In this document: in pieces, positions 10,197 to 61,460 of the stretch | Layout of the letters: each line of letters opens with the position of its first letter | Position numbering within the stretch: the first letter of the stretch is position 1 | Notes under the pieces: model-generated | The model's input: only the letters and a program-made list of their open reading frames with translations | Told to the model about the DNA's origin: nothing | Databases searched by the model: none | From: Acidobacteriota bacterium | Lineage (GTDB): Bacteria; Acidobacteriota; Blastocatellia; UBA7656 | Direction: 5' to 3' | Length of the DNA: 64,000 nt | Assembly: GCA_040754075.1 (NCBI GenBank) | Contig: JBFMDH010000016.1 | Coordinates: 62,001 to 126,000 of the forward strand | Position numbers and translations under genes: made by a program

Positions 10197-10228
10197 GATT
10201 AATTACAGTGGAAACTAAATTTCTTGAG

Positions 10229-10292: not shown

Positions 10293-10454
10293 TCTGAAAA
10301 ATATCAACTAACTTAGGTTCCAATGTACTAACTTAGTTTCCAAGGTATTGAATGCAAACTGAAAATATTTTGATTTCGTTGAGAGTTGGTTAAAGCGCGC
10401 CGTCGGGCGCAAACAGTCTGACAGGAGGATCAAAATTTCGTAAAATCTTTCGCC

Positions 10455-11951: not shown

Positions 11952-11969
11952 TTAAATAGTTTTCCTTTC

Positions 11970-12649
11970 AGAGCGTGTTTTGAAATTAACCTGAAGTTGT
12001 TGGCTTCAAGCGTTTGAGCATTAAATGAATCATCGCCAAGTAAACATAGGCCTCCGAGCTTTCTGTCCGTGCTTCATAATCTTTGCTCAGACGCCGACAG
12101 CGACTGATCCACGCCAGACTGCGTTCCACAACCCAACGACGTGGCAAGACCTCGAAACCAGCAACCTCCTCACGGCGGCGGATAATTTCCAGTACGCACC
12201 GCACTTGCTCTTTGACCCATTCGACCAATTGGCCGCCGTAGGCAGAATCCGCCCAGATTAAGCGCAGGCGGGTGAAGCGCTCGCGCACTTTGGCCAACAC
12301 CAACCTCGCGCCATCACGGTCTTGGATGGCGGCGCTATGCACGACCACCAGCAGCAACAAACCGATGGTGTCGACGAGAATATGGCGTTTGCGCCCGTTG
12401 ATCTTTTTGCCGCCATCGAAGGTGAGAGGTTGCGCCACTGGCAGCCGGTATGGAGTAAATAGAAAATGGCATTCATCACGTCACGCAAATCCACCTTGCG
12501 TTTGCGACCACGAGTCGCAGGAAGTGGTAACATCGGTTTAAGCAGTGGAAACTGCTCATCGGTGAGAGCAGTTCGATACGGTATTTTGTTCATCGCAATA
12601 ACAGTTTACCTGTCGTTGCTGATTCTCACCCAATTTCAAAACACGCTCT
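11970..12649. mobile_element. IS5-family element, internally deleted (680 bp)
   Basis: The terminal inverted repeats are perfect over 18 bp: agagcgtgttttgaaatt at 11970-11987 and its complement at 12632-12649. They enclose two pieces of an IS5-type transposase in different frames. The element is about 250 bases shorter than expected for a full copy, and the central part carrying the first catalytic aspartate is gone. I could not find a convincing target duplication. It sits just upstream of the GT39-like gene. Confidence 0.9.
11986..12593 (-). pseudogene. IS5-family transposase, central deletion and frame change
   Basis: The 5' part (12593 to about 12440) encodes the N-terminal DUF4096-like domain ([22 protein letters not shown], shown as separate short motifs TDEQFPLL and GCQWRNL). 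The 3' part (12438-11986, another frame) resumes in the DDE domain at '[16 protein letters not shown]' and contains the second Asp (WADSAYGG) and the Glu region ([15 protein letters not shown]). The linker and the first Asp, normally in a D-S-Q-S-V-K context, are missing. The fusion point is near 12420-12440. The product cannot be catalytic. The stop codon overlaps the left inverted repeat. Confidence 0.9.
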
Positions 12650-12910
12650 TACTTTAGTTATGCTTACCACAGAGTGAGTTGGAAATGTTTACCGTAATAT
12701 TCTCAATTCAATAGATATTGAGGCAATCGAGATGCCATAGTTGATGTAGCGGTTTGATAATAAAAACGGATGATTGCATACGCTAAAAATACCTGGATAT
12801 TTCTAAACAAAGTAATAATTACAATGTTGTAGCGTAAAAATTTCCATGTATTTAAGTTTGTTATTTGACCTCCAATTTCGGAGGCAGGAAAAGAACATGA
12901 AAATTTATTG

Positions 12911-14683
12911 TTATTCCAGCAGTTTGCTTTTATCGCCGGGCATCAAAGCCTGGCGATAAACCCAGAGCGGTGCCTGTCCGATTGAAAGCAAACGGTCATG
13001 AAATTCCTGCAATGAATAATCCTGTTTGTGAAAGCGCCGGTAATCTTCGCGCAATTTCAAAATCATGAGTTTTCCAACCGTGTAAACCAGATAAGTCGGG
13101 TCAAAAGTTCCGCGCTCGGCTTCAAGGCGCGCAGGCGTTTCACCCATAAAGGCATGCTCCATAAAAAAGCGCGTGCCGTCTTCAATCTTCATACCTTCGG
13201 TGTGCAGGCGTATGCCGACCACGAATCGACAAAGCCTCAAAAGGGCATCCGCGAGTTGTCCGAGTTTGATTTTCGGGTCGCCATTGCCGAAACCCTCTTC
13301 AAGCATCATCTGTTCGGTATAATGCGCCCAGCCTTCAACAAAACTTGCGGGCGCAAACGCCGCAGTCTTGCGCACTTTCGATTGCACCCGCGAAAGATAA
13401 ACGCCTTGCAGGTAATGACCGGGATAGGCTTCGTGAATCGACGTTGACCACAACTGCGGGTAGTTGATGGAGCCGAGATATTCTTCCTGCTGTTTTTCCG
13501 TCCATTTCGGGTCAACGTCGGTGATGAGGTAACGGGATGTGAGAGCGCGCGCTTCAAAGGCTCCGGGCGTCCACATACTCGCGGTTGACCAGCGCATAAA
13601 ATCGGGAGTCGCAGACACTACAGGCGGCACAGCTTGCGGTATGGTGACAAGCTGTTTTTCTTCAATGAATTTTTTCAAGGTGTCGAGTTGCTTCTGCGCT
13701 TCGTCAACCAAGGTTCCGGCTTTCGGATGTTCTCGCTGAACGTCAGCCCAGACCAGTAGAGGGTCGAGTTTGGGGTTGATTTTGGCGCATACCTGGCGGA
13801 ACTCATCTTGGGTTTTGCGAAGTTCGCGGTAAGCGATTTTGAGCAAGGTATCAACCGCGATGTCGATGCCTTCTTCGTAACGCAGCTTGGCTTCAAAATT
13901 GGCTTTGCCAATCGCAAACGCAACCGTGCTGTCCGCTTTGGTTTTTTCGAGATGTTTGATATAGCGACTAATCGCCTCGCTTGCGGTCTTCGTCGATTTT
14001 TTAAATTCGCTTTGTAACTTTGCATCCTTTACCGTAGCGAAGGCTTGCGGCAAATCGTTTTGGATGAAATCGTTGGTGCCTTTGAAATTTTCAATTGCCA
14101 CTTTTAAAAAGACTGCTGGAATGCCATTGATGTTGGCGCGCGCCGCGTCGATTAATTCAGGAATCAACTTCTCTTTGGCGATGAGGTGACGTAGTCGCGA
14201 ATCGGCAGGCGCGTATTCATACATGGCGATTTGCAGAAGCGAGTTGGAAATCGTGTCGCAATAAATTGACGGATTGCGTTTAAAGGATTGAATCTGTTCC
14301 AACTCCAGAAGCCGGGCTTTCATATTCGAGGCGAGGATTTGATAATCGAAAAGATCGGAACTTGAGAGTTGCAACGGTGGAATTTTGGCAAGCCGTTCCT
14401 GAAATTTTTTAATTGCGGAAACCTCGGCATTGATACCTGTATAACTATAATCTTCCAGCCCGCCGTCCCAGGCGTGAATACCACTTGCTGCCGCCAGGGC
14501 AGGATGTCGCGAATGCAAATCGCTTAAATACTCATCGACGAATTTTGGGAAATCGGCTGCTGCCATCGCCGTCTTATCTTCGGTCTTTTGTGCGAGTGTA
14601 ACTGTAGGAGCAAAATTGCCAACCCCTAAGATGATGACAACGAGAATTTCAAAAAGCCTGTAAACACGGGCTTTTTTCTTCAT
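12911..14683 (-). CDS. Secreted DUF885-family protein (putative metallopeptidase)
   Basis: A frame is open to 14779, but the ATG at 14683 gives a normal signal peptide (MKKKARVYRLFEIL ... TLAQ), so that start is chosen; the mature protein is about 560 residues. The DUF885 hallmark HEAYPGHYLQ (H-E-x-x-x-G-H) and a downstream Glu in 'FVEGWAHYTEQMM' are present, consistent with a zinc peptidase of the carboxypeptidase-M32-like fold. Members are probably extracytoplasmic peptidases. The gene stands alone; the 3' neighbour is the IS region. Confidence 0.85.
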   Translation of the reverse strand: MKKKARVYRLFEILVVIILGVGNFAPTVTLAQKTEDKTAMAAADFPKFVDEYLSDLHSRHPALAAASGIHAWDGGLEDYSYTGINAEVSAIKKFQERLAKIPPLQLSSSDLFDYQILASNMKARLLELEQIQSFKRNPSIYCDTISNSLLQIAMYEYAPADSRLRHLIAKEKLIPELIDAARANINGIPAVFLKVAIENFKGTNDFIQNDLPQAFATVKDAKLQSEFKKSTKTASEAISRYIKHLEKTKADSTVAFAIGKANFEAKLRYEEGIDIAVDTLLKIAYRELRKTQDEFRQVCAKINPKLDPLLVWADVQREHPKAGTLVDEAQKQLDTLKKFIEEKQLVTIPQAVPPVVSATPDFMRWSTASMWTPGAFEARALTSRYLITDVDPKWTEKQQEEYLGSINYPQLWSTSIHEAYPGHYLQGVYLSRVQSKVRKTAAFAPASFVEGWAHYTEQMMLEEGFGNGDPKIKLGQLADALLRLCRFVVGIRLHTEGMKIEDGTRFFMEHAFMGETPARLEAERGTFDPTYLVYTVGKLMILKLREDYRRFHKQDYSLQEFHDRLLSIGQAPLWVYRQALMPGDKSKLLE

Positions 14684-46966: not shown

Positions 46967-49900
46967 CTATGGAAGATTGCAAAAAGAATTACAAATCTCA
47001 AATGCTGTAATATGGGCAGCAGTTTGACAAGCATAAAATGCTTCTGCTGATGGGGAAATACTACAGGCATAAGCAGTATCCATTAATTGAATATAAAACC
47101 TCCTACAATTATTGGTGCAGGTGTTTGAAGCAGCTCTGCATACTATTTGTGCCCCTACGCAATAATATGATACCTGTCCTGCGCCCGATGCTGTTTTGCA
47201 TTTCTTTCTATAATAATTGCAACTGGTAGTTCCCGGACAACTACAACCGCCTCCACCACCGAAGGCACTTCCATCAGCATCAATGGGATTCCCACAACGG
47301 TCAAACTCACAGCTTGAAAATTCCGGCGGACAATAAAACGGCACATTCGGGCTTTGGCAAGGACCTTGGGCATTCAAGCCGCGTGGGTCAGTTAACAGAA
47401 TCGGGTCATTGACGACATAGCTGTAGCGGCTCAACTTCTGCGGTTGCTGGTAATGATTATTCCCTTTGTTCCCGCCACAAGTCATTCTTTTTGCGGCTTT
47501 GAATCCCTTATCAAGCAGTGGGTCAACGGTCTCGAATCTGCCGATTGCTAAGCTGTAATAGCGATTAACGGCATAATCCAAGCCAATCTCTGAGTCGCGT
47601 TCATAACTGGTGAAGCGATGCTTGTCTGATTCGCCGCTCACGCCCAACTCTTCACCAAACGGCAAATGGGCTTGTCTGCCGACGACTGTGCCACTCGCAT
47701 CCAACACCACTCTCGCGCTCAACCGGTCACTCAAAAAATAGCGGGTGTTGCCATTTTCGATTTTGGCAATCAACTTGCTCCCCGTGTTGATGTATCGGGT
47801 GATGACCGCGCCGGTCGCGCCGTTGTGTTCGGCAAGTACCTGAAAGCCTTCCCAGACATAATGGGTAATGGTCGCGCCAACGGTTTTTTTCACCCTGCGG
47901 TTCTTGTGGTCGTAAGCATAGACACTCGCGCCGCTATCGGCTGCGACGATGCGGTTTTCAGCGTCAAACACATAGCTGTGCTGTCCGTCGCTGGTGACAT
48001 TGCCCGCGTTGTCGTAAGTGTAATTCAACGTCGCGCCTTGCGTGACCGAAGTGATGCGATTAGTCGCGGTTCCGCCTGATTGTTGCAAGGTGATGGATTG
48101 GATTTGATTGCCGCCTGTGGTGGCATCCCACATTCCTGTGCGATTGCCCCAGCGGTCATAGGCAAAGCGGCGTTGGGCTGATGTTGCATTGGTCGTTTGA
48201 TAGGAGGTGACTAACCGACTCAATAAATCATAAGTGTAACTGGCGCTCTCGGTCGTTGAGTTAATCGTGCCGCTGATGCTCATCAATTGCCCGCTATTAC
48301 CGGCGGTTGAGCCGACGCCATTTTGTCCGGCGGCGGCGGCATAGTTGTAGGTCAAATTCAGCAAACTGGTCGCCCCCTTGGTTGCCGTTTGCGAGGTCAG
48401 TTGCATTCGATTGGTGTCATAGCCGAAGGTTTCGTTGATTACTGTGCCACTGGTGTTCAAGGTATCGCCGGTCACTTGCCCCGCATTGTTGTAGGCTACG
48501 TTGCTCAACCACGCCACGCCTGAAGAGTTCTTCAACTTCAACAAGCGCCCTTTGTTGTCGTACTCAGGATAGAGGTGCCCGATTTGTGTGCGTTGATTGG
48601 CTTGGTTGTATTGATAACTGGTCGAATAATTTTTGCCTTCGATGTTGTAAGCAAGAGATTGCAGATTGAGGCGGTCGCCACCATTCGCGCCGTTACCTTG
48701 TCCAATGTTGGAATAGGTATAAGTTTCCGAATACCCTGTGCCTACCGTGACCGAGAGCAACAAGCCTTTGAAGATGCTGGTTTGATTGTTGTCATAAGTG
48801 TAAGTGATGGTTGGCGTCGCTGCCACCCCCGATGCCCCGCTGGTGTTGTAGCTGATGCTGGTTAAACGATTCAAGCTGTCATAGGAATAGGTGGTGATGA
48901 CGCCTCTGGCATCGGTGCGGGTTGCGACTGCACCGAAATCGGTGTAGGCGTATTTCATCGTCCACAGCGTTCCCGTGCCGTCATTGATGGTCGCCGTCTG
49001 TTCGGGGATTTTTTCATAAAGCAAATGTCCTGCCGCGTCATATTTGAACGAGCGAATCTGTCCGCCCTGATTGACCTGCGTCAGACGGTCAGCCATATCA
49101 TAAGTGTAAGCGGTCTCCTGCGAGAGCGCGCCGGTCGTGACCTCTTGCTCCGTGACTTTAATGAGCCTGCCCAAGCTGTCCACCTCGCGTTTAATTTTCC
49201 GATTCACTTGATCGGTGACGGTTGTGATTTTGCCATTGTAAGCCGTTGTCACGGTGTTGCTATCAGGCGTCGTAATCACTGTGCCGCGACCGAGGGTGTC
49301 GTATTGATAAGTGGTCGCCGGAGCCGGAGTGCCGCCCGCTTGAAAGGGATGGGTGCGGCTGGTCATTCTGCCCAGGTTGTTGTAAGCCATGTTGACTTGC
49401 CCGCCGTGTTCATTGATTTCCTGAATCGCTTGTCCCCAGCCATCATAGACCGTCGAGGTGGTGATGGTTTTAGTCACCCCACCTTCAACATACTGCTGCG
49501 TCGTTGAACTCGGCAAGCCCCAGCCATTATAACTCGTTGAATTGGTCGCACCTGTCGGGCTGGTCGTTCCAGTCAACAGATTGCCTGAGCCGTAGCTATA
49601 CGCGGTGATTTGTCCGTTCGGGTCAGTGTTAGTTTGCAGGTTGCCGCTATTGAAACTGTAGCTCATCGCGTCGGTCAAATAGATACCACTGGTATTGCCG
49701 CGTGTCGCTTGTTCGGCTTTCGACCAATAGGTGTTCTGTCCGAAGGTGTAGCTCTTTTCGTTGCAACACGAAATCTGCTCTTTCACGCGATTGCCGAACA
49801 TATCGTAATTTCTGGTGTGAGTGTCAAACGTATTGCTCGAAATATTTGTCCACTCTTTGACCGTCGTTGGATTACCGTGCGTCGTGCCGTTGTAACTGGC

Positions 49901-50890
49901 AATATAGCCCGGCGGGTTGGCTCCCGAATAAGTCGTCACCGTCGTGTTGTCATATTGATATTCGGTCTTGGCTATCAACACATCATCGCCGTCATTGGTG
50001 TTCTCCTGTGCGTCGTAAATCTCGACCGTCTGCAACAGGCTTCTCAGATAGGCATCAACATACTGTTGATAAGGAACGTAGGTATTGTGGGTTCGCCTGC
50101 GGACTTTCCATTGCCCGCCGATTTGATTGCCGTATTCGCGTTTGTCGGTGATGTTGCCGTATTGGTCATAACTGAAATCCACTTTGCTGGCGGTGTTGGT
50201 GTCGTCATAACTGGTGATCGTTTGCACCTGTGGTTGTCCGCCCGCGTCGTTGGCATAAGTGTACACGGTTTTCGCTACGGTCGTGCCGCCGCTGGTGCGA
50301 ATTTCCGATTGCGTGATGCCGAGGCTGCCGGGCGTCAGTCGCAAAGTCGAATTATCCGGGCGAGTGATGACATAAACACCTGAACTGGTCGAATAAGCAT
50401 AGGTCGCGTTCGGCGCGTTGGTCGCGGTCTCTGTGCGTTGGGTAAAGGTAGGTCCTCCATAAATCGCTTCGCCTTGTGCTGCACCCGCTCGACAGATGAG
50501 ACGAGCTTGTCCAGGCTGTAAAAAAGTAGCGCGCCCGGTGTCATCAATGGTGAGGATGTTGCGGTCGGAAGTTTCCCATGAGAACTTCGCGCCGTGAACG
50601 ATTTCCCCATTTGCATCAACACCCAAAGCGGTGAAAATTTGCGCTTCGTTGAGGTAGCCAACGAATTTGAATGGCGATATACGAATCCGCGACACGCGAT
50701 TATTGCGTTCAGTCATCGTTTCTTGCCTGGGTAATTTGGCTTTTGTATTGAATAACCATTTGATGAAGTCGGGTAATAATTTGAATGATGAAGCGCTCAC
50801 GTTGGCGGCTCCACTCCAAGTTGTAGAGGCAAACGCCTTCGCGCCTTCGATAAAAGAATGCTGAACCGGAAAAATTAACAAGCTCAACAT
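46967..50890 (-). CDS. Rhs/YD-repeat protein with a cysteine-rich C-terminal tip
   Basis: About 1,307 residues. A short hydrophobic N-terminus (1-23) may be a leader; the frame is open further upstream without a better start. Residues 70-140 resemble a BIG2-like domain. Then follow many YD repeats ('YTYDMADRLTQVNQGGQIRS'-type units), the Rhs-core end 'RFETVDPLLDKGF' and the plug motif 'SRYSYVVNDPILLTDPRGLN'. Rhs shells encapsulate a variable C-terminal toxin. Here the tip is about 135 residues with 16 cysteines and several C-x3-6-C pairs; I recognise no toxin family. Two membrane-protein paralogues downstream are candidate immunity genes. Confidence 0.88.
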   Translation of the reverse strand: MLSLLIFPVQHSFIEGAKAFASTTWSGAANVSASSFKLLPDFIKWLFNTKAKLPRQETMTERNNRVSRIRISPFKFVGYLNEAQIFTALGVDANGEIVHGAKFSWETSDRNILTIDDTGRATFLQPGQARLICRAGAAQGEAIYGGPTFTQRTETATNAPNATYAYSTSSGVYVITRPDNSTLRLTPGSLGITQSEIRTSGGTTVAKTVYTYANDAGGQPQVQTITSYDDTNTASKVDFSYDQYGNITDKREYGNQIGGQWKVRRRTHNTYVPYQQYVDAYLRSLLQTVEIYDAQENTNDGDDVLIAKTEYQYDNTTVTTYSGANPPGYIASYNGTTHGNPTTVKEWTNISSNTFDTHTRNYDMFGNRVKEQISCCNEKSYTFGQNTYWSKAEQATRGNTSGIYLTDAMSYSFNSGNLQTNTDPNGQITAYSYGSGNLLTGTTSPTGATNSTSYNGWGLPSSTTQQYVEGGVTKTITTSTVYDGWGQAIQEINEHGGQVNMAYNNLGRMTSRTHPFQAGGTPAPATTYQYDTLGRGTVITTPDSNTVTTAYNGKITTVTDQVNRKIKREVDSLGRLIKVTEQEVTTGALSQETAYTYDMADRLTQVNQGGQIRSFKYDAAGHLLYEKIPEQTATINDGTGTLWTMKYAYTDFGAVATRTDARGVITTYSYDSLNRLTSISYNTSGASGVAATPTITYTYDNNQTSIFKGLLLSVTVGTGYSETYTYSNIGQGNGANGGDRLNLQSLAYNIEGKNYSTSYQYNQANQRTQIGHLYPEYDNKGRLLKLKNSSGVAWLSNVAYNNAGQVTGDTLNTSGTVINETFGYDTNRMQLTSQTATKGATSLLNLTYNYAAAAGQNGVGSTAGNSGQLMSISGTINSTTESASYTYDLLSRLVTSYQTTNATSAQRRFAYDRWGNRTGMWDATTGGNQIQSITLQQSGGTATNRITSVTQGATLNYTYDNAGNVTSDGQHSYVFDAENRIVAADSGASVYAYDHKNRRVKKTVGATITHYVWEGFQVLAEHNGATGAVITRYINTGSKLIAKIENGNTRYFLSDRLSARVVLDASGTVVGRQAHLPFGEELGVSGESDKHRFTSYERDSEIGLDYAVNRYYSLAIGRFETVDPLLDKGFKAAKRMTCGGNKGNNHYQQPQKLSRYSYVVNDPILLTDPRGLNAQGPCQSPNVPFYCPPEFSSCEFDRCGNPIDADGSAFGGGGGCSCPGTTSCNYYRKKCKTASGAGQVSYYCVGAQIVCRAASNTCTNNCRRFYIQLMDTAYACSISPSAEAFYACQTAAHITAFEICNSFCNLP

Positions 50891-50893
50891 CAA

Positions 50894-51300: not shown

Positions 51301-52557
51301 CTACTGACAGGAGATGGTTAGGTCAAATCGGTCTATCATATCGCGCAATTTTTCGACAATCGCTTCGCGGTCAAATTGCAAGCCGATTTTTGAAATGAAC
51401 ACCCGTTCACGGATGATGCCGTTAATCTCTTTGAGTAGCAGACGACAAAACGCCGTAATCACTCCGGCATCGAATTGGCTGTTGGTATGTTTTTCGAGTT
51501 CGCCAAGCGCCACTTCCAGCGGCAATCGTTTGCGATACGGTCTATCGGTCATCATCGCGTCAAAGGAATCGGCAAACGTCACAATGCGTGAGCCGAGCGG
51601 AATTTCATCGCCGCGCAGTCCGTTCGGATAACCCGTGCCATCGACTCTTTCGTGATGGCATTTGGTCATATAAGCGATGTCCTGCCACGGGCGGCGAATG
51701 TGCGACAGGATTTCATATCCCGCCATCGGGTGTTTGTTCAACTCTTTGAATTCGCGTTCACTGAGCGGTTGCGGATTGTTGATGATGCTGCGGTCAACCG
51801 TGATTTTGCCGATGTCGTGCAGGTAGCCGGCGACGCTGATGTATTCCAACTCGTCGCCGGTGACGCCCATCTCTTTGGCGATGGCTTCCGAATACCTGGC
51901 AACCCGTTCGGAATGCCCGCTGGTGTAGGCATCTTTCAAATCGATTGCTGCGCCAAATGCCGCCACCGTGTCTTTATAAACCGAATGCATTTCGCGGTAG
52001 AGGCGACGATTTTCCTCGGCGCGGCGTTTGAGCGAAATAATCAACCTCTGATTATAAAGCGCCAGCCCAATGTGGCGCGCAATGGTGTTGATGATTTCCA
52101 AATCTTCATCTTGAAATGGTTCGCCTGAGATTTTTTCCGAAAGGTAGATGACGCCCATCAATTCGCTTCTGACGGTCATCGGAACGATTAAATCGGCGCG
52201 AAGCTTTTTAAACATTTCCCCATGACGACGAACGAAATGCGCCAATCCGTTGCGCTCTGCGTGTAAGTTAATCGGTTTCAGGCAACCGGCGATTTTTTCG
52301 GCTTCATCGCCTCCGAGTTCGATTTTTTGCCCGACTGCGCCATGCAACCCTTTCGCGGCGATGATTTTCAGTTGTCGCGGTTTTTCGCTGAATCGCGCAA
52401 TTGCGCCTTTGGGAATCGCCATCGTGCCCAGACAGGTATGCAGGGAAGCGCGCATCAGTTCATCGAAATTTTCCTGTGAGGTGATTTCAGCGCCTAAATC
52501 GGTGAGCGCGCCGAGTGTATGCAGCATTTTTCTGACGGTTAGATTATTCGGACTCAT
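51301..52557 (-). CDS. GAF-HD-GYP protein, probable c-di-GMP phosphodiesterase
   Basis: The ATG at 52557 has GGAGGAGGGG just upstream. The protein (418 residues) has a GAF domain (about 25-175) and an HD-GYP domain (about 205-370): 'YTSGHSERVARYS', 'GYLHDIGKI', 'HHERVDGTGYPNG', 'DSFDAMMTDRPYRK'. All key residues (H, HD, K, HH, GYP) are present, so c-di-GMP hydrolysis is expected. The C-terminal 60 residues are a separate helical tail. It ends the minus-strand signalling block with STAS, ATPase and GGDEF genes. Confidence 0.9.
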   Translation of the reverse strand: MSPNNLTVRKMLHTLGALTDLGAEITSQENFDELMRASLHTCLGTMAIPKGAIARFSEKPRQLKIIAAKGLHGAVGQKIELGGDEAEKIAGCLKPINLHAERNGLAHFVRRHGEMFKKLRADLIVPMTVRSELMGVIYLSEKISGEPFQDEDLEIINTIARHIGLALYNQRLIISLKRRAEENRRLYREMHSVYKDTVAAFGAAIDLKDAYTSGHSERVARYSEAIAKEMGVTGDELEYISVAGYLHDIGKITVDRSIINNPQPLSEREFKELNKHPMAGYEILSHIRRPWQDIAYMTKCHHERVDGTGYPNGLRGDEIPLGSRIVTFADSFDAMMTDRPYRKRLPLEVALGELEKHTNSQFDAGVITAFCRLLLKEINGIIRERVFISKIGLQFDREAIVEKLRDMIDRFDLTISCQ

Positions 52558-52682
52558 ACCCCTCCTCCAAAATAATTCCTGTCCGTTCGGTTGACAGAAC
52601 CAATCCCTCACTTTTACGGCAGCCCCGTAAAAAGTTTTAGCCAGTTCTTATGCAGATGTGTCCTGTAGCCAGCGTTCAGATT

Positions 52683-53039
52683 TTACGATGCATAGGCATA
52701 CAATTTTGCTAAAGCGATTTGTTCCGTCTCTTCGACATAAACGTGTGACATCAACCCCAGCATTTCAAACAACTCGCGGTTTGAATCGTTGAGGTTTGAA
52801 AGCAGCAAGGTGCCCTTTGCCGCTTTGATGGTTTCCATCACTTCCAGCAGAATTGAAATGCCGATGCTGTTAATCAACTCGGTTTCCTCGAAATTAATTA
52901 CCAGACGTTTTACACCATTGCCTAAAAATTCTTTGCATTGATGTTCGATGACTTCACCGCGCAATTGATTGAGATAGGCGCCGGGATAGATGATGGCTGC
53001 GCCATTAACCAGTTTCGATTTTATTGTTACCGTCTTCAT
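52683..53039 (-). CDS. STAS-domain anti-sigma-factor antagonist-like protein
   Basis: The 118-residue protein is a single STAS domain of the SpoIIAA/RsbV type: 'VKRLVINFEETELINSIGISILLEVME' (quoted as VINFEETELINSIGISIL). A serine is retained at residue 58, in the loop that is phosphorylated in SpoIIAA (N-S-I-G here, D-S-S/T-G usual). The cognate kinase is probably the RsbW-like domain of the ATPase encoded immediately upstream. A GAGGGG site precedes the ATG. Confidence 0.88.
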   Translation of the reverse strand: MKTVTIKSKLVNGAAIIYPGAYLNQLRGEVIEHQCKEFLGNGVKRLVINFEETELINSIGISILLEVMETIKAAKGTLLLSNLNDSNRELFEMLGLMSHVYVEETEQIALAKLYAYAS

Positions 53040-53290
53040 TCAAATCCCCTCTTAAAACCTTTTCAGCATCCCAAGCCAGAACCTGATTCGTCCAAGCAGA
53101 ACGATGTTTTTTTCGTGGTGAGGCCATTCAGCATTGCCAAAAAGTTTAATTGATTCAGACAGCGCTTTTGCCCTGCAATGATTTTGCAAAGTTCGTGGGG
53201 GTATCCGCTCAAATGTTGGGGCAAGCGAGAAAATGCGACTTTAGATTTTACCGGGATGTGTTTGCTCTTTCGTTATTAACCGGCGACATC

Positions 53291-55636
53291 TTACCCGCTT
53301 TGGGGGCGGTTTAGCAACTTCGCCATGATTAAATTTGTGCCATCATCGGCGCGCTCGAATTTTACTTCGTCCATCAGGGCGCGAATAATTTTTAAACCGC
53401 GCCCGCGCGTGCCCACCGTGGCGTCGGATACCATACCGCTGGTTTCGAGAATTCCGCCAAATGATTTGCCTTTGTTGGCAACTGAAATCATCAAGCGGTC
53501 TTCTTCGAGAATAAATCGTAGATAGATTTTCCGGTCGGGGCTGTTGCTATGTTCTGCGGCATTGATACAGGCTTCAATCAAAGCGGTTTTAATCTGATTG
53601 ATGGATTCTTTATCAAATTCCGCGCTGCGGGCAATCTGTTCAACGGTGCGCGCGGCAATCAACTCGGCTTCATCATCAAACGGAATAATCAATTCAACTT
53701 CATTAGCGGCGCGGCGCTCTGTAGGTTGGGCTTCGCTTTTTTGCAGAAATTCATGCAGCGCGTCCAGTTGATTATAGTTTGAATGATAAGCCTGCAAACT
53801 TTTTAATAATTCAATGGCTTCTTTGGTGAACCCTTCTTTGCTGATATACCAGCGGGTCGCGTTGGCGAAATTTCCGAACAACACATTGCGCGAAGCCACT
53901 TCAAATTTCAGTTCGGTTTGTTCGATGGTTTTTACATCCAGCGGCTCTTTTGAATTAAATAGCCCAATCAACCACAGCGCTTCATTGGTTTCGCTATAGA
54001 TTCCGCCTTCAAAACCGCTGGCAGTAAATAATCGCAGGCTTAGCGATTCGCCTTCACTCTCTTTTACGTCGTTGACTAAAACGATTTGCGGCAATCGCAG
54101 GCGTTCTTTCTCCGCTTCGATTGCCTGACGCGCCTGGGCGCGGCTCAAGCCGCGATAAAGGTTTTCAAAAAGGTTTTCGTCAAACAGGCTCATGGGGATA
54201 GCCTGAAAATCGAAATGCGACAGGGTGTCAACCAGTTGGGATTCAATAGAGCGATGATAGCGCGACATCATCAGGCGATAGGAATCTTTGAGTTTTTCGC
54301 CCAGCAACGCTTCACCGGCAATCGGGCGGCGTGCTCCTTCAACTTCAAAACGGTACTTGGCGCGAACATAATCGGCAAGCGTCGCGTCATCTGATGCGGC
54401 GACGAATCCATAACTGATATGCAGCAGTTCGCGCTGATGCATACGCGCAAGCAGAACTTCCGGCTCATCTGTGAATTTACGCAGGCGTTCGATTACCGAG
54501 GTGATGGGAATGGTTTCACCGGCTTCGATGGCAACGGTCAAACCTTCGATGCAGGCGCGTCTCGCGAGCGAATCCCCGGCAATGTCACGCAAAACCGCAT
54601 CGAAATAATAGCTGATGCGTCCTTGCAGAATTTCTTCCGTGTAGATGCGCTCAAATTCCATGAATGATTTCAGGCGTGAGGATTGTGCCGCCGCCGCATC
54701 CAGCAAAGCCCGTAGGTAAAACAGGTCGCTCCCGAGTTGTTGCAACATCAACTCGACCGTTGATTCGCTGATTTCAATCCCCAGTTGTTCGGCGTGCGCG
54801 CCAATCATGCGTTCGGCAGGTTCTTCTGCAAGCGGTTCCAGACGAAGCAGGTGCAGCCGTTCAAAGAAGGCTTCATCGGCAGGGATGATTTCAGTAATCA
54901 TTCGCTGCAAGCCGCACATTAAATAATTAACTGTGGTTTTTTTATCAACGCTTGAAAGTTTATATGAAAGGTCATCCTGATTGATGGCACGGAACATTTC
55001 GACACGCAGGTTGATGCCATCGCGATTATCCTCAGTGGCTTTCGCCAGCCAGTGAAAATTGTCGAGCATCACAAAAGGCGAAAGTTGGGTGTGCGCGGCG
55101 ATAACCATTGGCGCAGCCAGCGCGCAGCGCACAGCGCCAAGCAGATCACCGGCTTTTTTCGCCTGTAAAAAATGGTCAAGCAGATTCGTCACCCACGGGC
55201 GGTCATCAAGTGACGCTTTATCTATGATGTCGGTAAAAGTTGCCGTCGCCAGTGCTAAAAATTTAGCATCCTGATGGCGGAACGCCAGAAACTGCGCCAG
55301 CACCCGTGACAGGTACTCTTTGGCAAACTGTTCGGGTTCGAGGTGGTACGGGCGAAAAGCAAAATAGACGGGCAATACCTGCCCAGAGGCGAGAAAAAGT
55401 CTATCGAAAGTTTTTCTCAACGTTTCGGTTTTACCGATGCGGGGTGCGCCAAGTAGCAAGGCAATAGCGCCGGTCTCTTTCGCTTGATAAGGAAAAGCTT
55501 TTTGTGCTGCCGCGTTTTTAAAAAGCGTCAATTGTCTGGGTTTGAGGTAGCCGAAAGTGGCAAGCGCGATAAGTTGGGCAATGTCATCTTCGCGGTCGAA
55601 AAATTCCAAGTCTGTGAGGCGACTGAGTATCTGCAT
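53291..55636 (-). CDS. Large ATPase with C-terminal RsbW-like kinase domain
   Basis: The 781-residue protein has a STAND/AAA-like NTPase at the N-terminus: P-loop GAPRIGKT (63-70), Walker B-like 'FVMLDNFHWL', and a long helical middle like the winged-helix and sensor parts of STAND proteins. The C-terminal 140 residues form a GHKL/HATPase_c domain of the RsbW type: N-box 'IEACINAAEHSNS', 'VANKGKSFGG' and 'GTRGRGLKII'. It probably phosphorylates the STAS protein encoded 251 bases downstream, under control of the NTPase. The architecture is uncommon. Confidence 0.85.
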   Translation of the reverse strand: MQILSRLTDLEFFDREDDIAQLIALATFGYLKPRQLTLFKNAAAQKAFPYQAKETGAIALLLGAPRIGKTETLRKTFDRLFLASGQVLPVYFAFRPYHLEPEQFAKEYLSRVLAQFLAFRHQDAKFLALATATFTDIIDKASLDDRPWVTNLLDHFLQAKKAGDLLGAVRCALAAPMVIAAHTQLSPFVMLDNFHWLAKATEDNRDGINLRVEMFRAINQDDLSYKLSSVDKKTTVNYLMCGLQRMITEIIPADEAFFERLHLLRLEPLAEEPAERMIGAHAEQLGIEISESTVELMLQQLGSDLFYLRALLDAAAAQSSRLKSFMEFERIYTEEILQGRISYYFDAVLRDIAGDSLARRACIEGLTVAIEAGETIPITSVIERLRKFTDEPEVLLARMHQRELLHISYGFVAASDDATLADYVRAKYRFEVEGARRPIAGEALLGEKLKDSYRLMMSRYHRSIESQLVDTLSHFDFQAIPMSLFDENLFENLYRGLSRAQARQAIEAEKERLRLPQIVLVNDVKESEGESLSLRLFTASGFEGGIYSETNEALWLIGLFNSKEPLDVKTIEQTELKFEVASRNVLFGNFANATRWYISKEGFTKEAIELLKSLQAYHSNYNQLDALHEFLQKSEAQPTERRAANEVELIIPFDDEAELIAARTVEQIARSAEFDKESINQIKTALIEACINAAEHSNSPDRKIYLRFILEEDRLMISVANKGKSFGGILETSGMVSDATVGTRGRGLKIIRALMDEVKFERADDGTNLIMAKLLNRPQSG

Positions 55637-55693
55637 ATTAAAAAGGTGTTCCCACGAAAAAAGAAAATGACGAATCCGCGTTTAATCCAAATA

Positions 55694-57331
55694 TTATTCT
55701 TCAAAAATCGCCACCTGGTCGCGTCCGCGAGCTTTTGCTTCGTAAAGCGCCGCGTCCGCCGATTGAATGATGAGATGTGGCGAGTTGATGGATTTACTGA
55801 ATGACGAAACCCCAATGCTTAGGGTGACGCGGTTCATCTCACCACCCTGTTCGGTGGCGAGTTCGATTTGCCGAACCTCTTTGCACAACCGTTCGGCTAT
55901 ACGCGAAGCGGAGGCTAAATCGGTTTCCGGTAAAATAATGCAAAACTCATCACCGGCAAATCGCGCAGGCATATCGATGGTGCGAATCGAGCGTCGGAAA
56001 ATATTGGCAACCTGAATCAACATGCGGTCGGCATTGGTGTGCCCGTAAAGATCGTTGTAGCTTTTAAAATAATCAATGTCGATCAACATGAATGCCAGCG
56101 GGGTGTTATGGCGTTTGGAACGCTCGACCTCTTCAAACAGTCGTTCTTCAAGATAACGACGATTCGGCAATCCCGTCAGTTCATCGGTCAATGACATCTG
56201 CTGATACTGTTCAGCCTTTTTATACCACTCAGTTCGATCAATGATGAGGGCAATCTGCGGGGCAATCATATCGAGAATCAACAGGTCTTGCTTATCGTAA
56301 GCGGTTCCGTCTTTGCGGTCGGTTAAATTCAAGACCCCGAATTTGCGACTGCCCAGGGTGATGGGGTAGCTGATAAACGATTTGGTCTTATAATTCGCCG
56401 CGCGGCTGCTTCGCACACGTCGGTCTGTATCCACATTGTGAACCAGCAGCGGCAGACCGCTGTAGAGCACCGCGCCGGAAATCCCTTCGCCGAGTTTGAC
56501 GCGAATTTTACTTAATGACTCGAAATCGGCTCCCACCGCCGCTTCCAGAGAAAGTTCAGCAGTTTCCGGGTTATAAAGCATCAGCGAACCGCGCTCGGCT
56601 TTCATGATTTCATTGAACTTTTTCAAAATGTCCAGATAAACCGATTGCGAATCCAGGGTCGGCGCGACATCACGCAGAAAATCCTGAAATTGCACCAATG
56701 CCCGATTTTTATTTTCGAGTTCATCGGAAAGTCGAATGATTTCCAGGTGCGCATCCAGAAGATTAGGAGCGTTTTCGAGTTCATTGATTGACGATAAGCT
56801 GGAGTGCTCTCGCGCAAAGTGGGCATTTGCGGTTGAGGAAACGACCTCTGCAATCTCCGCAAGTTCAAACGGGTCATTGAACTTGATGTTTTGCAAAGCC
56901 GCGCCGGTTTCGACAGGTTGATAATCCTGATAACGATTTAAAAATTTTGAATAATTTGCCGATGAGGTAAAAGTTCTGCCTCCGAGAATAACCAGTGGTT
57001 TCGGGTGATTATGCGCCGCAAAGGCAAAACACTTTAGCCCGACGTGACAGGTATATTCGATTTTTCCGACCGCACGGATTGCCCGCTGGTAAGCTGTCCC
57101 ACAATCGGCGTCACAACGGTTGGCGTGAACCGGAGATTTCTGCATCGCCTGACAGATGCTATTTTCGTTCGCGGTTTCTCCAACATAAATATTGCTTTCA
57201 TCAAGCGTCGTCAGGGCAATATTATTTTTTTCCGCCAGCGATTGCTGTATAGGCAACCACGCCGAAAGCGGCGTGTCCGGTGAAGGCGTGTGATTGGATG
57301 GTAAAGAATTTTTCACGAGTTCCGGTAGCAA
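55694..57331 (-). CDS. PocR-GAF-GGDEF diguanylate cyclase
   Basis: The 545-residue protein has a PocR sensory domain (about 20-165) with C60, C73, C77, C95 and C101, a GAF domain (about 215-370) and a C-terminal GGDEF domain. The active site reads A-G-D-E-F and the inhibitory site R-x-x-D is at its usual distance (RTIDMPARFAGDEF). Both are compatible with an active, product-inhibited c-di-GMP synthase. PocR domains are thought to bind small hydrocarbons or metals. The start is uncertain (TTG 57331; a GTG at 57316 is also possible). It is first in the signalling block. Confidence 0.9.
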   Translation of the reverse strand: MLPELVKNSLPSNHTPSPDTPLSAWLPIQQSLAEKNNIALTTLDESNIYVGETANENSICQAMQKSPVHANRCDADCGTAYQRAIRAVGKIEYTCHVGLKCFAFAAHNHPKPLVILGGRTFTSSANYSKFLNRYQDYQPVETGAALQNIKFNDPFELAEIAEVVSSTANAHFAREHSSLSSINELENAPNLLDAHLEIIRLSDELENKNRALVQFQDFLRDVAPTLDSQSVYLDILKKFNEIMKAERGSLMLYNPETAELSLEAAVGADFESLSKIRVKLGEGISGAVLYSGLPLLVHNVDTDRRVRSSRAANYKTKSFISYPITLGSRKFGVLNLTDRKDGTAYDKQDLLILDMIAPQIALIIDRTEWYKKAEQYQQMSLTDELTGLPNRRYLEERLFEEVERSKRHNTPLAFMLIDIDYFKSYNDLYGHTNADRMLIQVANIFRRSIRTIDMPARFAGDEFCIILPETDLASASRIAERLCKEVRQIELATEQGGEMNRVTLSIGVSSFSKSINSPHLIIQSADAALYEAKARGRDQVAIFEE

Positions 57332-57960: not shown

Positions 57961-58977
57961 TTAATGCGAATAAAAGAGCGCCAATTGCCCGCCGGTATGC
58001 CAGAACAACACGGTATCGTGGCGAGTGAGCCGTCCCTGCTTTATCCAATCCAACATTCCGGCAAAGGCTTTTGCGGTATAAACCGGGTCGAGGATGATGC
58101 CTTCGGTGCGCGCCAGATTTTTCAGTGCTGCCGATGATGCAGCCGACGCGATGCCATAGCCTTCGCCGATATAGTCATCAAGCACGACGGCTTCCTGATG
58201 CAATGATGCCTCGGATATTTCAAGCAGAGCTTTTAATCCGTTGATGACTTGGGAAACTTCAGCGGCAATCGCTTCACTGGGGTCATCAGGACTGACGCCA
58301 ATGATTTTTGCTTCACTCAACGGACAAAGCGCCGCCCCAACTATTAACCCGGCTTGCGTGCCTCCCGAAGAACTCGAATGAAACATATGGGTCACCCGCA
58401 CATTCATCGCTTCAAGTTGCGCAGCGGCTTCCTGTGCGGCTTGAACATAACCGAGCGCGCCCAGCGGCATCGATGCCCCAAGCGGAATTTCTAAAACTCG
58501 CTTGCCCGTGCTCCTTAAATCTTCGGCTAACGAGTGCATCGTGGTTTGACGGGATTCGCGGTTATCGACCAGATGAACCTTAGCGCCAACCAGTTCATCA
58601 ACAACCAGACTTGCGGGCTTCCACTCATCTGCGGTTTGCGAACTGCGGTTAAGAATCAGCACACAATCCAAACCCACGCGCGCGCACATGGCTGCGGTCG
58701 CCCGGCAATGATTGGATTTTTCTCCGCCGATGGTGAGAACCGTATCAACGCCATCACGGATTGCCTGAGCTAAAACATAATCGAGTTTGCGAACTTTATT
58801 GCCGCCAAATCCTGCGCCGGTGTAATCATCGCGTTTGATAAAAATGCGCGGCGCGTTTTCGCCCAGCGTTTGTTGAAATCGCCGGAGTTCTTCAATCGGC
58901 GTCGGGTGAACGCCGATGTTCAAACGCGGTGTGTCGGCGAGTTTGGCAAGAGCTTTTTTCTGCAACGCTTCGTTCAT
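57961..58977 (-). CDS. D-cysteine desulfhydrase/ACC-deaminase family PLP enzyme
   Basis: The 338-residue protein is a fold-type II PLP enzyme: 'PTPIEELRRFQ', the PLP lysine in 'GFGGNKVRKLDYVLA', 'TIGGEKSNHCRATAAMC', and the phosphate loop 'SSSSGGTQAGLIVG'. The family includes D-cysteine desulfhydrase and ACC deaminase; the 'GGEKSNHCRATAA' and late 'FWHTGGQLALF' segments fit the former better. It starts one base after the serine hydrolase stop, so the two genes form an operon. Confidence 0.85.
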   Translation of the reverse strand: MNEALQKKALAKLADTPRLNIGVHPTPIEELRRFQQTLGENAPRIFIKRDDYTGAGFGGNKVRKLDYVLAQAIRDGVDTVLTIGGEKSNHCRATAAMCARVGLDCVLILNRSSQTADEWKPASLVVDELVGAKVHLVDNRESRQTTMHSLAEDLRSTGKRVLEIPLGASMPLGALGYVQAAQEAAAQLEAMNVRVTHMFHSSSSGGTQAGLIVGAALCPLSEAKIIGVSPDDPSEAIAAEVSQVINGLKALLEISEASLHQEAVVLDDYIGEGYGIASAASSAALKNLARTEGIILDPVYTAKAFAGMLDWIKQGRLTRHDTVLFWHTGGQLALFYSH

Positions 58978-58978
58978 C

Positions 58979-60217
58979 TTATTCCGGTTTCTGATTGCTG
59001 GTTTCCGATTTTTTAAACAACGGAAAGATATTCTTAAACAAATATTCTTTAATCACCCGGTCGGCTTCGCGGGTATTTTTACTGGCATCTTTTTCGGTTG
59101 GTATGGCGTGGGTATTGAATGCCACGATGTAAGCCGCGCGATTATCCGGGCGCACATAAAAGTGCAGGATGAAGCCGTTCTGGCTGCCGCTATGCCCGAT
59201 GAAATGCTGCCCGAAATTGTCTTCAATAAAATAGGTCAGCCCCATCGCATCTTTACGGTTTTCACCGTCTGCAACCTGCGGCTCGATGTTGATTTGCGCT
59301 TGCCACATCGCTTCAAGCGATGCGCGCTTTAAAACGCCATCATAGATTGCCTGTTTTTTCGCGTCGCCCATCAGGAAATTAATATATTTCGCCATATCGG
59401 TGAGCGGCGCATTGAGTCCGCCGTTTGACACTGTGATGCCGGTATCGACATCAAACCGCGCCGGCGTGAGTTTTCCATCTTGCAGGTAATAACTGTGCGA
59501 GCGATAGTTGAGTAAATGATAAGGGGTGGCGTCGAAATAGCTGCGATACATCTCCAAAGGCTTGAAAATATTTTTATCGACATAAACTTCAAAATCGTCA
59601 TGGGTGATGATTTCAATAACCCGACCTAAAAAAATAATCGCCGGATTGGAATAACTCCACTTGGAGCCGGGTTTAAATTGAATCTCTGTGTAAGGCAGCA
59701 TGGCGACAATTTGCGACCAGTGTTGCGGTTCGTGCGGATGCCAATCTTTGTCGCCGCCCCAGGGCCAGGTCGCATCACGAAACCCGGCGCTATGCGACAT
59801 CAACTGACGCAAGGTGATTTCACTCATATCGCCGAACGGATTATGCACAGCGCGCAGTTCGGGCAGGTATTTGATAATCGGGTCGTCGAGTTTCAGCAAA
59901 CCTCTGTCGCGAAGTTGCATGATGGCAATGCCCGTGAAGGTTTTGGTAATCGATGCCCAATGATAAATCGTGTCTTCATCGACGACTTGATTCTTTTCAA
60001 GATTGGCCTTGCCATAAAACTCTCTGGCGATGATTTGATTATCGTGAATCAGAAAAAAACTGCTGCCGATGATGCCATGTTTTTTGAGCTGTTGTTCGTA
60101 AACCGTTTTGAAACCTTGATAGGCTTGATTGAAATTCTGGGAAGTTTGAGCGTTTACGGTTGTCATAAGCCATGCAAGAGCGCACATCACCGAACAAAGT
60201 CGCGTTACTTGATTCAT
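58979..60217 (-). CDS. Secreted serine hydrolase, beta-lactamase family (class C type)
   Basis: The ATG at 60217 gives a signal peptide (to about residue 23, V-N-A-Q). The motifs are S-x-x-K in 'HWASITKTFTG', the Tyr of 'KWSYSNPAIIFLG' (Y-x-N) and a late 'GHSGSQNGFI' (H-S-G). The length (412 residues) fits. Such proteins are DD-peptidases, esterases or D-aminopeptidases rather than true beta-lactamases in most cases. It is co-transcribed with the desulfhydrase-like gene. Confidence 0.88.
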   Translation of the reverse strand: MNQVTRLCSVMCALAWLMTTVNAQTSQNFNQAYQGFKTVYEQQLKKHGIIGSSFFLIHDNQIIAREFYGKANLEKNQVVDEDTIYHWASITKTFTGIAIMQLRDRGLLKLDDPIIKYLPELRAVHNPFGDMSEITLRQLMSHSAGFRDATWPWGGDKDWHPHEPQHWSQIVAMLPYTEIQFKPGSKWSYSNPAIIFLGRVIEIITHDDFEVYVDKNIFKPLEMYRSYFDATPYHLLNYRSHSYYLQDGKLTPARFDVDTGITVSNGGLNAPLTDMAKYINFLMGDAKKQAIYDGVLKRASLEAMWQAQINIEPQVADGENRKDAMGLTYFIEDNFGQHFIGHSGSQNGFILHFYVRPDNRAAYIVAFNTHAIPTEKDASKNTREADRVIKEYLFKNIFPLFKKSETSNQKPE

Positions 60218-60426
60218 CGTTATCTTGCTCCTATTTTCAAGCAACCGGAGTTTGCCTGAACCTTGCTTTCTTATTCAAGACGAAATCAACCAGGCTATGG
60301 CTTCGCCGGTCAGGCAACAGATTTGATAGATTTATCAATGTAAAAGAGCCGACCGGTCAAACCGATTCAAACAACGTGTATAAAAATAGAGGGAATAATT
60401 AACGGTTGATTGATTGCCACTCGAAA

Positions 60427-60762
60427 TCAACTGAAAAGCCAGATATTCGCTACTTCTTGAGTCGCAACCACGCGAATCATCGGGTGCGATGCATGCTCAT
60501 AAGCCAACTCGCTGAATCGTTCGCCGAAGCGTTCCGGGTTTGGCAGCACAATCGCTGCGCGAATGCGATAGTTCACTAACTTTTGAAAAAATTCTCCGGC
60601 GATGCCGCTACGCAGGTCGAAAAACTCTTGCCCCAATTCGTTTTCGGTGAGCATCAGCCCTTCAGCGCCAAGCGCCGCAGCAATCGCATCCGAAATATCG
60701 CCAACCGTCCGTATGAAAATGCCAACGTCCGAAGCCTTGATGATTTTAGGTTCCTCACTCAT
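60427..60762 (-). CDS. DUF4180-family protein
   Basis: The ATG at 60762 overlaps the stop of the L,D-transpeptidase gene by four bases (ATGA). The 111-residue protein matches the DUF4180 pattern: 'EFFDLRSGIAGEFFQKLVNY', 'RIRAAIVLPNPERFGERF' and 'ELAYEHASHPMIRVVATQEVANIWL' (quoted as ASHPMIRVVATQEVA). It is a small cytoplasmic protein of unknown role, translationally coupled to the upstream gene. Confidence 0.8.
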   Translation of the reverse strand: MSEEPKIIKASDVGIFIRTVGDISDAIAAALGAEGLMLTENELGQEFFDLRSGIAGEFFQKLVNYRIRAAIVLPNPERFGERFSELAYEHASHPMIRVVATQEVANIWLFS

Positions 60763-61460
60763 TGCTGCTTTGCCTGATTGAGAAATTTGGAAGTGGAAAG
60801 CCAATGTTTGTCCGGGTAATAAGCAAAGATCAAATTGCCGTCTTTGAGGGTGTCAATCAACGGTTTGACAACCGAATTTTCCACCGCCGGACAGCCAAGG
60901 CTGCGCCCCAACCGTTGATATTGGGCAATCATATTTTTGCTGACGTACCACGCGCCGTGCAAAACGATGGCGCGCGGTTTGGCTTGATCGTTGATTCCCG
61001 GTTCCAGCCCCGCAAGCCTTAAAGAATAGCCATGTTCGCCTTCATAGGTTGACTGTGTAACATAGAGACCGAGACTTGATTGCGAACTTCCCGGTCGATT
61101 GGAAAATGAGGTGGCAAAGTTTTCGCCGCTGCCTTTGCCATGTGCGACCAACTCATAAAAAAGCACCCGCTTTGCCTGCGTATCCAGTACCCAGAATCGT
61201 CGTTTGGTGCTTGGCAAAGAAAAATCGATAATTCCCAGAATTCTGCCGTTGGCGATGCCTTGTTTGGTTGCCGTTTGCGCGGCTTCTAAAGCCAACCGCA
61301 ACACATTGGGCGACAACGCTTCGACCTCCCAGGGCGTTGCGGCTTTGGTCGATGGGTTGGCGACAGACCCGGTAGCCGAGACACTGAGGAGTAAAAACAA
61401 AACCGTCAGCAGGGATTTGAGATAAGGTGAAAACGAAGAACGACTGCTAATAAACTTCAT
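60759..61460 (-). CDS. Murein L,D-transpeptidase catalytic-domain family protein
   Basis: The 233-residue protein has a signal peptide (about 1-35) and the YkuD-like catalytic core of the 'murein L,D-transpeptidase catalytic domain' group: 'IIDFSLPSTKRRFWVLD', 'LHGAWYVSK' (catalytic His) and 'RLGRSLGCPAVE' (catalytic Cys in S-x-G-C-P). It acts in the periplasm on peptidoglycan cross-links or anchors. It is followed by the DUF4180 gene with a four-base overlap. Confidence 0.9.
   Translation of the reverse strand: MKFISSRSSFSPYLKSLLTVLFLLLSVSATGSVANPSTKAATPWEVEALSPNVLRLALEAAQTATKQGIANGRILGIIDFSLPSTKRRFWVLDTQAKRVLFYELVAHGKGSGENFATSFSNRPGSSQSSLGLYVTQSTYEGEHGYSLRLAGLEPGINDQAKPRAIVLHGAWYVSKNMIAQYQRLGRSLGCPAVENSVVKPLIDTLKDGNLIFAYYPDKHWLSTSKFLNQAKQQ

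Follow-up and report, generated by a model that had tools for sequence, protein, structure and literature searches.

Our results support a model whereby four adjacent genes of an Acidobacteriota bacterium form one signalling module that sets cyclic diguanosine monophosphate (c-di-GMP) through a modified partner switch, with c-di-GMP rather than a sigma factor as its output, a reading that we hold with about even confidence. The genes occupy positions 51301-57331 of the window, by which we mean the whole stretch of 64,000 nucleotides analysed here (GenBank assembly GCA_040754075.1, contig JBFMDH010000016.1, positions 62,001 to 126,000), equivalent to 113301-119331 of that contig (contig 16, C16) in a genome of 7.58 Mb. 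In transcription order, and all on the minus strand, they encode a PocR-GAF-GGDEF cyclase, a fusion of a nucleoside triphosphatase (NTPase) region to an RsbW-like domain, a STAS protein and a GAF-HD-GYP phosphodiesterase. All four of the same-strand genes described in the initial annotation of this DNA are present in that place, each backed by Pfam, which recognizes the HATPase part of the fusion only.

The classic role of partner switches is to regulate sigma factors, and in a few bacteria they also control diguanylate cyclases. In the present module, both the synthesis and the breakdown of c-di-GMP appear to be joined to such a switch, the kinase-like domain is fused to a STAND-like NTPase, and both the Asp that reads adenine and a neighbouring phosphatase are missing. 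If confirmed, the module would illustrate how a switch based on phosphorylation can be turned into one that works through a second messenger; it also gives a testable prediction on which nucleotide an RsbW domain reads.

In our model, in which the enzymatic activities are those that we infer for each protein, the PocR/GAF part of the first protein would sense a ligand and its GGDEF domain would make c-di-GMP, which the GAF-HD-GYP protein would remove. The STAS protein would be the moving part, with two alternative docking sites: the RsbW domain of the STAND-like fusion, which would serve as a hub and may be oligomeric, and a GAF-carrying enzyme. Its choice between them would shift the balance of synthesis versus breakdown. 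The likeliest GAF-carrying target is the HD-GYP protein because it is the constant neighbour of the STAS protein and because its GAF is common to the phosphatases of some related operons. The switch would work either by binding only or with a nucleotide other than ATP.

Conservation of the four-gene order

The unit was compared across 80 loci, which a contig scan retained from 105 relatives. Most of these loci come from metagenome bins, some on short contigs, and they include a nine-member clade titled Deltaproteobacteria, uncultured bacterium or Brocadiaceae; genes in these loci and in the comparators described below carry labels from profiles built in this analysis, not from curated annotation. 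Of the 59 loci whose DNA reaches far enough on both sides, 39 have the complete block, uninterrupted and in this order, which is far above chance; the gene order, whose conservation across Acidobacteriota the initial annotation proposed to check, is largely intact. Upstream DNA of 1.5 kb or more is available at 67 loci, and 65 of them have the cyclase there, the exceptions being L084, in which the cyclase frame is broken, and L130. Among the 67 loci that extend 2 kb or more beyond the fusion, 46 have a STAS gene within 300 nucleotides downstream of it, and in 45 of these 46 the HD-GYP gene comes next. Wherever a locus shows both, the STAS and HD-GYP genes adjoin (51/51).

The STAS-HD-GYP pair was sought elsewhere in 14 genomes in which it was not found beside the fusion (13 from the 21 loci that have enough downstream DNA yet no STAS gene within 300 nucleotides, plus L088, on a short contig), and 12 of them carry a STAS protein of the same subfamily at another place, with HD-GYP directly after it. 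In this search for the displaced pair, L088 gave only a partial match and L123 none. In L126, the pair lies 7.5 kb down the same contig as the fusion. Among the other eight of the 21 loci, L082 and L108 have it 2.0 and 2.9 kb further along the contig, respectively. The usual joining together with these split cases indicates that the unit is in effect made up of two pairs, cyclase-fusion and STAS-HD-GYP. The genes are thus not scattered in relatives, although some genomes split the block into its two pairs, and the conserved neighbourhood upholds the earlier proposal that c-di-GMP turnover is joined to a partner-switch pair.

A search of 39 genomes (that of the window and 38 relatives) found a near-full-length fusion in all six other genomes of the window's family and in all eight sampled genomes of a second family, f3. 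The complete block, ordered and without insertions, is present in 6/6 and 4/8 of these, respectively; in the remaining f3 genomes, two additional genes precede STAS (one genome) or neither STAS nor HD-GYP is found beside the fusion (three). At E <= 1e-25, 55 of 396 genomes of the phylum have a match, which spans the whole fusion in 30, all from families f1 and f3, and is confined to the RsbW domain in 25. Overall, the module was seen in Blastocatellia, including Pyrinomonas methylaliphatogenes K22, and in one further clade.

In the window, the intergenic gaps are 57, 251 and 71 nucleotides in transcription order, the last becoming 125 nucleotides with a later HD-GYP start. The gap of 251 nucleotides between the fusion and STAS genes makes a promoter inside it possible. 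The split halves found in some genomes, together with altered Walker A and G1 sites in the fusion (see below), are what would be seen if the cyclase and the phosphodiesterase were independent genes merely co-transcribed with a vestigial partner switch. We consider this very improbable: Acidobacteriota and the Deltaproteobacteria/Brocadiaceae-labelled clade alike retain the four genes, either as one block or as two pairs, and the STAS loop N-S-[IV]-[GA]-[IV]-S is intact in 57/57 proteins.

Several loci depart from the common layout in other ways. In L045, FGE-sulfatase/zinc-ribbon and PEGA-type genes (10708-13370) stand between the fusion and STAS genes; in L046, an FGE-sulfatase gene (5413-6789) follows the fusion; and in L132 an FHA-GGDEF protein (10097-11065) is encoded directly downstream of the fusion, the STAS-HD-GYP pair not being adjacent there. 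A single open reading frame spans cyclase and fusion in L084, but its GGDEF part lies in another frame; we therefore read it as a frameshift rather than a gene fusion and did not use it as evidence. The apparent fusion protein in L116 (profile matches of 41 and 47 bits) was discarded as cross-matching, Pfam there giving PocR-GAF-GGDEF.

The RsbW domain and its STAS partner

The fusion protein ends in an RsbW/SpoIIAB-like HATPase domain (residues 641-781; 53294-53716, minus strand, as for all block features below). Pfam places HATPase_c_2 at residues 661-773 (E 6.2e-18), phmmer connects the domain to RsbW (E 1.6e-10), and the predicted structure of residues 645-775 matches RsbW 6m36_C with a Z score of 19.4 and a root-mean-square deviation (rmsd) of 1.4 over 105 residues. 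In this family of folds, the Glu of the N box is catalytic, the N-box Asn binds Mg and the Asp of the G1 box contacts adenine. The N box is present as EACINAAEH (residues 688-696; 53549-53575), with Glu688 and Asn692 kept in 81/81 fusion homologues. At the G1 box, Asn721 (53474-53476) aligns to the Asp of RsbW and SpoIIAB, and this Asp occurs in 0/81 homologues, the position being Asn in 50, Ser in 29 and another residue in 2 (the G1 alignment of L123 and L133 is unsure). Other GHKL proteins no longer bind ATP once their G1 Asp is lost. The fusion also falls below the NCBIfam cut-offs for RsbW (NF003144, 57.4 versus 145 bits; TIGR01924, 52.2 versus 155.05 bits). For these and the following residue counts, proteins had to reach 600 (fusion), 90 (STAS), 300 (HD-GYP) or 450 (cyclase) amino acids, and the alignments A2, A5 and A6 were built from 53, 53 and 43 chosen rows, respectively.

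The STAS protein, related to anti-sigma-factor antagonists, has 118 residues (52683-53039; Pfam STAS, E 3.7e-9) and matches SpoIIAA 1th8_B by profile with E 4.2e-9. Its Ser58 (codon 52866-52868) aligns to the phosphorylatable Ser of SpoIIAA, which we take to be the SpoIIAA phosphosite, and Asn57, Ser58 and Ser62 are all kept in 57/57 proteins. Like the fusion, it misses the NCBIfam cut-offs of its class (TIGR00377, 35 versus 53.45 bits; TIGR02886, 35.9 versus 114.75 bits).

No open reading frame is best matched by a PP2C profile in the 80 loci, and contig C16 holds no SpoIIE match. The missing G1 Asp together with the lack of a nearby PP2C makes phosphorylation of the STAS protein uncertain. 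The initial annotation had called the domain an RsbW-like kinase; the RsbW fold and the N box bear this out, while the same two absences speak against an ordinary kinase.

Ordinary RsbW-STAS-PP2C operons as comparators

To place these losses, the block can be set beside 25 loci of the phylum with a free-standing RsbW, plus the RsbW/RsbV pair of the window's own genome. The G1 Asp is present in 26/26 of these RsbW proteins (a second frame in L049, of 121 residues and with a weak RsbW match of 22 bits, was not counted as RsbW). The STAS proteins carry N-S-I-G in all 25 loci and D-S-S-G in the genome's own pair. Downstream of STAS, an open reading frame matches the PP2C profile at more than 100 bits in 25/25 loci but not at the genome's own pair, and Pfam finds SpoIIE with GAF in 11/11 of the main PP2C proteins scanned (L050 and ten more). 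No HD-GYP, cyclase or NTPase fusion was labelled in the comparator stretches.

The GAF domain of the block's phosphodiesterase leads to the same operons. With a profile of this GAF, the first GAF of eight phosphatases (L048-L052, L164, L165 and L169) reaches 111-132 bits, whereas no other non-HD-GYP protein searched exceeds 49 bits and no cyclase GAF exceeds 40 bits. PP2C and HD-GYP are thus attached to related GAFs next to related STAS proteins, the pattern expected after an exchange of output domains. Exchange of sensor domains among phosphatases, histidine kinases and cyclases has been proposed in the consulted part of PMC12143880, in whose main text the word phosphodiesterase has no occurrence.

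In a tree of 36 fusion rows, thinned from 78 (L123 and L133 having been left out beforehand), and the 26 ordinary RsbW, all fusion domains fall on one side of a branch with support 96/76. This arrangement is consistent with the Asp having been lost once, in a common ancestor of the Blastocatellia and Deltaproteobacteria-labelled lineages.

Taken together, the lost G1 Asp, the absence of the usual phosphatase and the HD-GYP protein in the place of PP2C suggest that the partner switch has most likely abandoned the ATP kinase/PP2C cycle. It is tempting to speculate further, with low confidence, that Asn or Ser at G1 makes the RsbW domain accept GTP, c-di-GMP or one of its breakdown products in place of ATP, so that the product of the flanking enzymes, or their substrate, would decide whether the STAS protein is held by the hub or freed to the HD-GYP protein. 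Such a phosphorylation-free switch would form a self-contained feedback, in which PP2C had been exchanged for HD-GYP behind one kind of GAF.

The alternative is an ordinary switch, in which the RsbW domain phosphorylates Ser58 of the STAS protein with ATP, a remote PP2C reverses the reaction and the phosphorylation state picks the c-di-GMP enzyme, as in SiaC-SiaD and HsbA-HsbD. We judge this rather unlikely, albeit as a serious contender. In its favour are the invariant N-box Glu and Asn and STAS Ser, the presence of SpoIIE domains elsewhere in the genome and, in the parts of PMC8457831 and PMC5085249 consulted, published phosphorylation-dependent binding of STAS or STAS-like proteins to a cyclase; it has to contend with the G1 Asp absent throughout, with loci free of any PP2C-labelled frame and with an NTPase Walker A Lys that is replaced in most relatives.

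Several observations weigh against our preferred model of a modified, phosphatase-free switch acting on the HD-GYP protein. The invariance of the N-box Glu/Asn and of the STAS Ser is as expected if phosphorylation persists. The absence of PP2C covers the DNA fetched, up to 8 kb on each side of a locus and often less, and the four strong SpoIIE domains encoded elsewhere in the genome could act in trans. If the Asp was lost once on the tree, the coincidence of lost Asp and missing phosphatase counts as one event. Of the 25 PP2C-type operons, no more than eight have the related GAF, which the phosphatases of the remaining 17 do not show; among those eight, the GAF phosphatase is directly beside STAS in five and one gene further in three. 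Finally, evolutionary rates do not point to one partner. Across 42 loci (37 without the Deltaproteobacteria-labelled clade), the STAS rate covaries with that of the HD-GYP GAF (partial r 0.33 and 0.36, respectively) but as much with that of the fusion's middle domain (0.41 and 0.35), the values being 0.26 and -0.07 for the RsbW domain and -0.37 and -0.32 for the cyclase GAF; because the pairs are non-independent and no significance was computed, the covariation is a weak hint that does not single out the HD-GYP GAF.

Other features of the comparator operons and of the genome's own switches are recorded here. The genome's ordinary RsbW/RsbV pair, with its G1 Asp and D-S-S-G intact, lies on contig C24 (L053, 6038-6832), and a second switch on contig C13 (G000:C13:139041-140443) has SpoIIE and HATPase_c_2 in one 722-residue frame beside a STAS gene. 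In L164 (2938-5250) and L165 (4676-7309), a HAMP-SpoIIE phosphatase, the L164 copy being cut short, is encoded between STAS and the GAF-SpoIIE phosphatase, which gives two phosphatases per operon.

The enzymes of c-di-GMP turnover and the question of output

The cyclase (545 residues; 55694-57331) comprises PocR (residues 26-170), GAF_2 (226-365) and GGDEF (381-539; Pfam E 3.3e-48) domains, and among 53 cyclases scanned, that of the window included, PocR is found in 51 and GAF and GGDEF in all. The active-site signature expected of a diguanylate cyclase is present as A-G-D-E-F (residues 459-463; 55943-55957), with [G/A]-G-[D/E]-E-F in 68/68 proteins, which would fit an active enzyme. The RxxD motif, presumably the product-inhibition site, is formed by Arg450 and Asp453 (55973-55984), both kept in 68/68. 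In the PocR domain, Cys60, Cys73 and Cys95 are nearly invariant and possibly make up a metal or redox site.

The phosphodiesterase gene extends from 51301 to 52557, in a frame open up to a GTG at 52611. Its true start is probably the ATG at 52557 because a GGAGG lies just upstream. Pfam identifies GAF and HD_5 (E about 1e-35), and the HD-GYP catalytic signature, H, D, HHE and D-G-x-G-Y, occurs in 50/50 proteins, with Pro329 invariant in the 43 rows of alignment A6. With 12 GGDEF, 6 HD-GYP and 10 PilZ matches genome-wide, the module would be one among several c-di-GMP inputs.

The earlier remark that no sigma factor is encoded nearby holds for the one family searched, Sigma70_r2: there is no match in the window, the nearest on the contig lies about 100 kb away (C16:10667-11564), and on the other side of the block none occurs up to the contig end, about 34 kb. 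A sigma-factor output in cis was accordingly rejected over this range, other sigma families being unsearched. In the reverse direction, c-di-GMP would be the input, and the RsbW/STAS pair would signal to a remote target, for instance a different RsbW, a sigma factor or an anti-sigma factor. Sigma70_r2 matches number 42 across the genome, which also contains other RsbW-like and STAS genes, and the gene upstream of the related RsbW-STAS-PP2C operons encodes a GAF-sigma54 activator in 3/3 scanned (L173:6627-8102, L167:3446-4975 and L170:7103-8596). Yet the module itself has neither a Sigma70_r2 nor a sigma54-activator gene, and Pfam scans of the fusion and STAS proteins name no c-di-GMP-binding domain; we regard this direction of signalling as improbable.

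The NTPase region and middle domain of the fusion

In the fusion protein (781 residues; 53291-55636), a STAND-like NTPase, a middle domain and the RsbW domain are predicted by AlphaFold2 and by fold matches; the full model, built from a 53-sequence alignment, has a mean pLDDT of 88.3 and a pTM of 0.71. The NTPase region (residues 1-440; 54317-55636) is predicted to be of the STAND/archaeal-ATPase type, with an AAA-type core and a helical/winged-helix region. The model of residues 5-426 is closest to archaeal ATPases (2qen, Z 24.1, rmsd 3.8 over 327 residues; 2fna, Z 23.6), followed by NRC4 (Z 19.4), ORC2 (19.0), CED-4 (17.6) and Apaf-1 (14.8); because ORC and other AAA chains also match, it is the combination of archaeal ATPase and NLR matches on which we base the STAND label. 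Pfam at E <= 0.01 gives nothing in this part of the window's own protein, and among 53 fusion members it reports AAA_16 in 16, ATPase_2 in 12, NPHP3_N in 5 and nSTAND1 in 2. The Walker A motif of the P-loop, GAPRIGKT (residues 63-70; 55427-55450), has its Lys in the window, and across 81 rows this Lys is kept in 17, replaced in 62 and in a gap in 2. The 17 keepers are the window, L054-L058, nine members of the Deltaproteobacteria/Brocadiaceae-labelled clade, L123 and L133.

The middle domain (residues 437-640; 53717-54328), which folds alone in prediction with a pLDDT of 92.7, may have a PD-(D/E)XK fold. Its leading structural matches are AF1548 (Z 8.9, the sole chain at 8 or above), EndoMS (7.8), RPB5 (7.8) and FokI (7.6), which we take to share this fold. 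Foldseek gives weak matches only (E >= 8.5e-3), with Avs3 first (8.5e-3) and tyrosine phosphatases lower, and a profile search of the sequences of solved structures with this domain yielded no match at E <= 1. The site of the (D/E)xK motif reads N561-S-K563 in the window, and Asp or Glu at 561 with Lys563 is found in 62 of 81 rows. Nuclease activity of the window's domain is therefore not favoured; a role as a scaffold is likely here, and a nuclease is possible in relatives.

Relation to known systems

Partner switching onto cyclases is already known from SiaABCD, HsbA-HsbD and Bgr, and the phosphatase of the first, SiaA, is of the PP2C type. In the consulted parts of PMC8457831 and PMC5085249, a STAS or STAS-like protein binds and controls a cyclase in the pairs SiaC-SiaD, HsbA-HsbD and BgrV-BgrR. 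Similarly to our block, SiaABCD of Pseudomonas aeruginosa is a four-gene unit, in which the STAS-related SiaC and the kinase SiaB set the cyclase SiaD (PMC8457831, in part). It differs in having the SiaA phosphatase and in that SiaC is a DUF1987 protein, whereas the block combines a Pfam STAS protein, HD-GYP and an RsbW-NTPase fusion with no PP2C. In agreement with this distinction, Pfam at E <= 0.01 assigns the block's STAS protein to STAS families only, not to DUF1987, and no SiaA-type phosphatase occurs in the block unit (80 loci; contig C16). No mention bearing on the G1 Asp of SiaB was found in PMC7647112.

In the HptB-HsbR-HsbA-HsbD system of P. aeruginosa, the STAS protein HsbA likewise binds the cyclase HsbD, dependent on Ser56 (PMC5085249). 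Unlike the block, that system uses HsbR as both kinase and phosphatase, HsbA also acts on FlgM, and the part of the source consulted mentions no phosphodiesterase partner. In BgrSTUWV/BgrR of Sinorhizobium meliloti, a partner switch of the STAS protein BgrV controls the cyclase BgrR, as cited in PMC8457831, whose consulted part mentions neither a phosphodiesterase nor an NTPase fusion for it. An RsbT-type protein controls a GGDEF protein, MtG, in the stressosome of Moorella thermoacetica, as cited in PMC12143880; there, according to the part consulted, RsbT acts via an RsbU N-terminal domain of the cyclase, whereas the block has an RsbW-type domain and a STAS partner. Streptomyces offers a case in which a phosphodiesterase can counteract an anti-sigma factor (PMC13232838, in part).

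Closer to home, the Acidobacteriota RsbW/STAS/PP2C operons share with the block the N-S-I-G STAS loop, a related RsbW and, in part, the phosphatase GAF; they differ in their free-standing RsbW with the G1 Asp and in having PP2C where the block has HD-GYP. Likewise, the STAND NTPases and archaeal ATPases resemble the predicted fold of fusion residues 1-440, but the fusion ends in an RsbW domain and most of its relatives have replaced the Walker A Lys. A search of the open-licence literature, covering titles and the beginnings of abstracts, found no description of the four-gene module.

Surroundings of the block

Rfam at gathering scores reports no structured RNA in the window. Upstream of the block, 57961-60804 on the minus strand holds genes for a PALP enzyme, a beta-lactamase-fold protein and a DUF4180 protein, and downstream of it an RHS-repeat protein of 1308 residues is encoded at 46967-50893, also on the minus strand.

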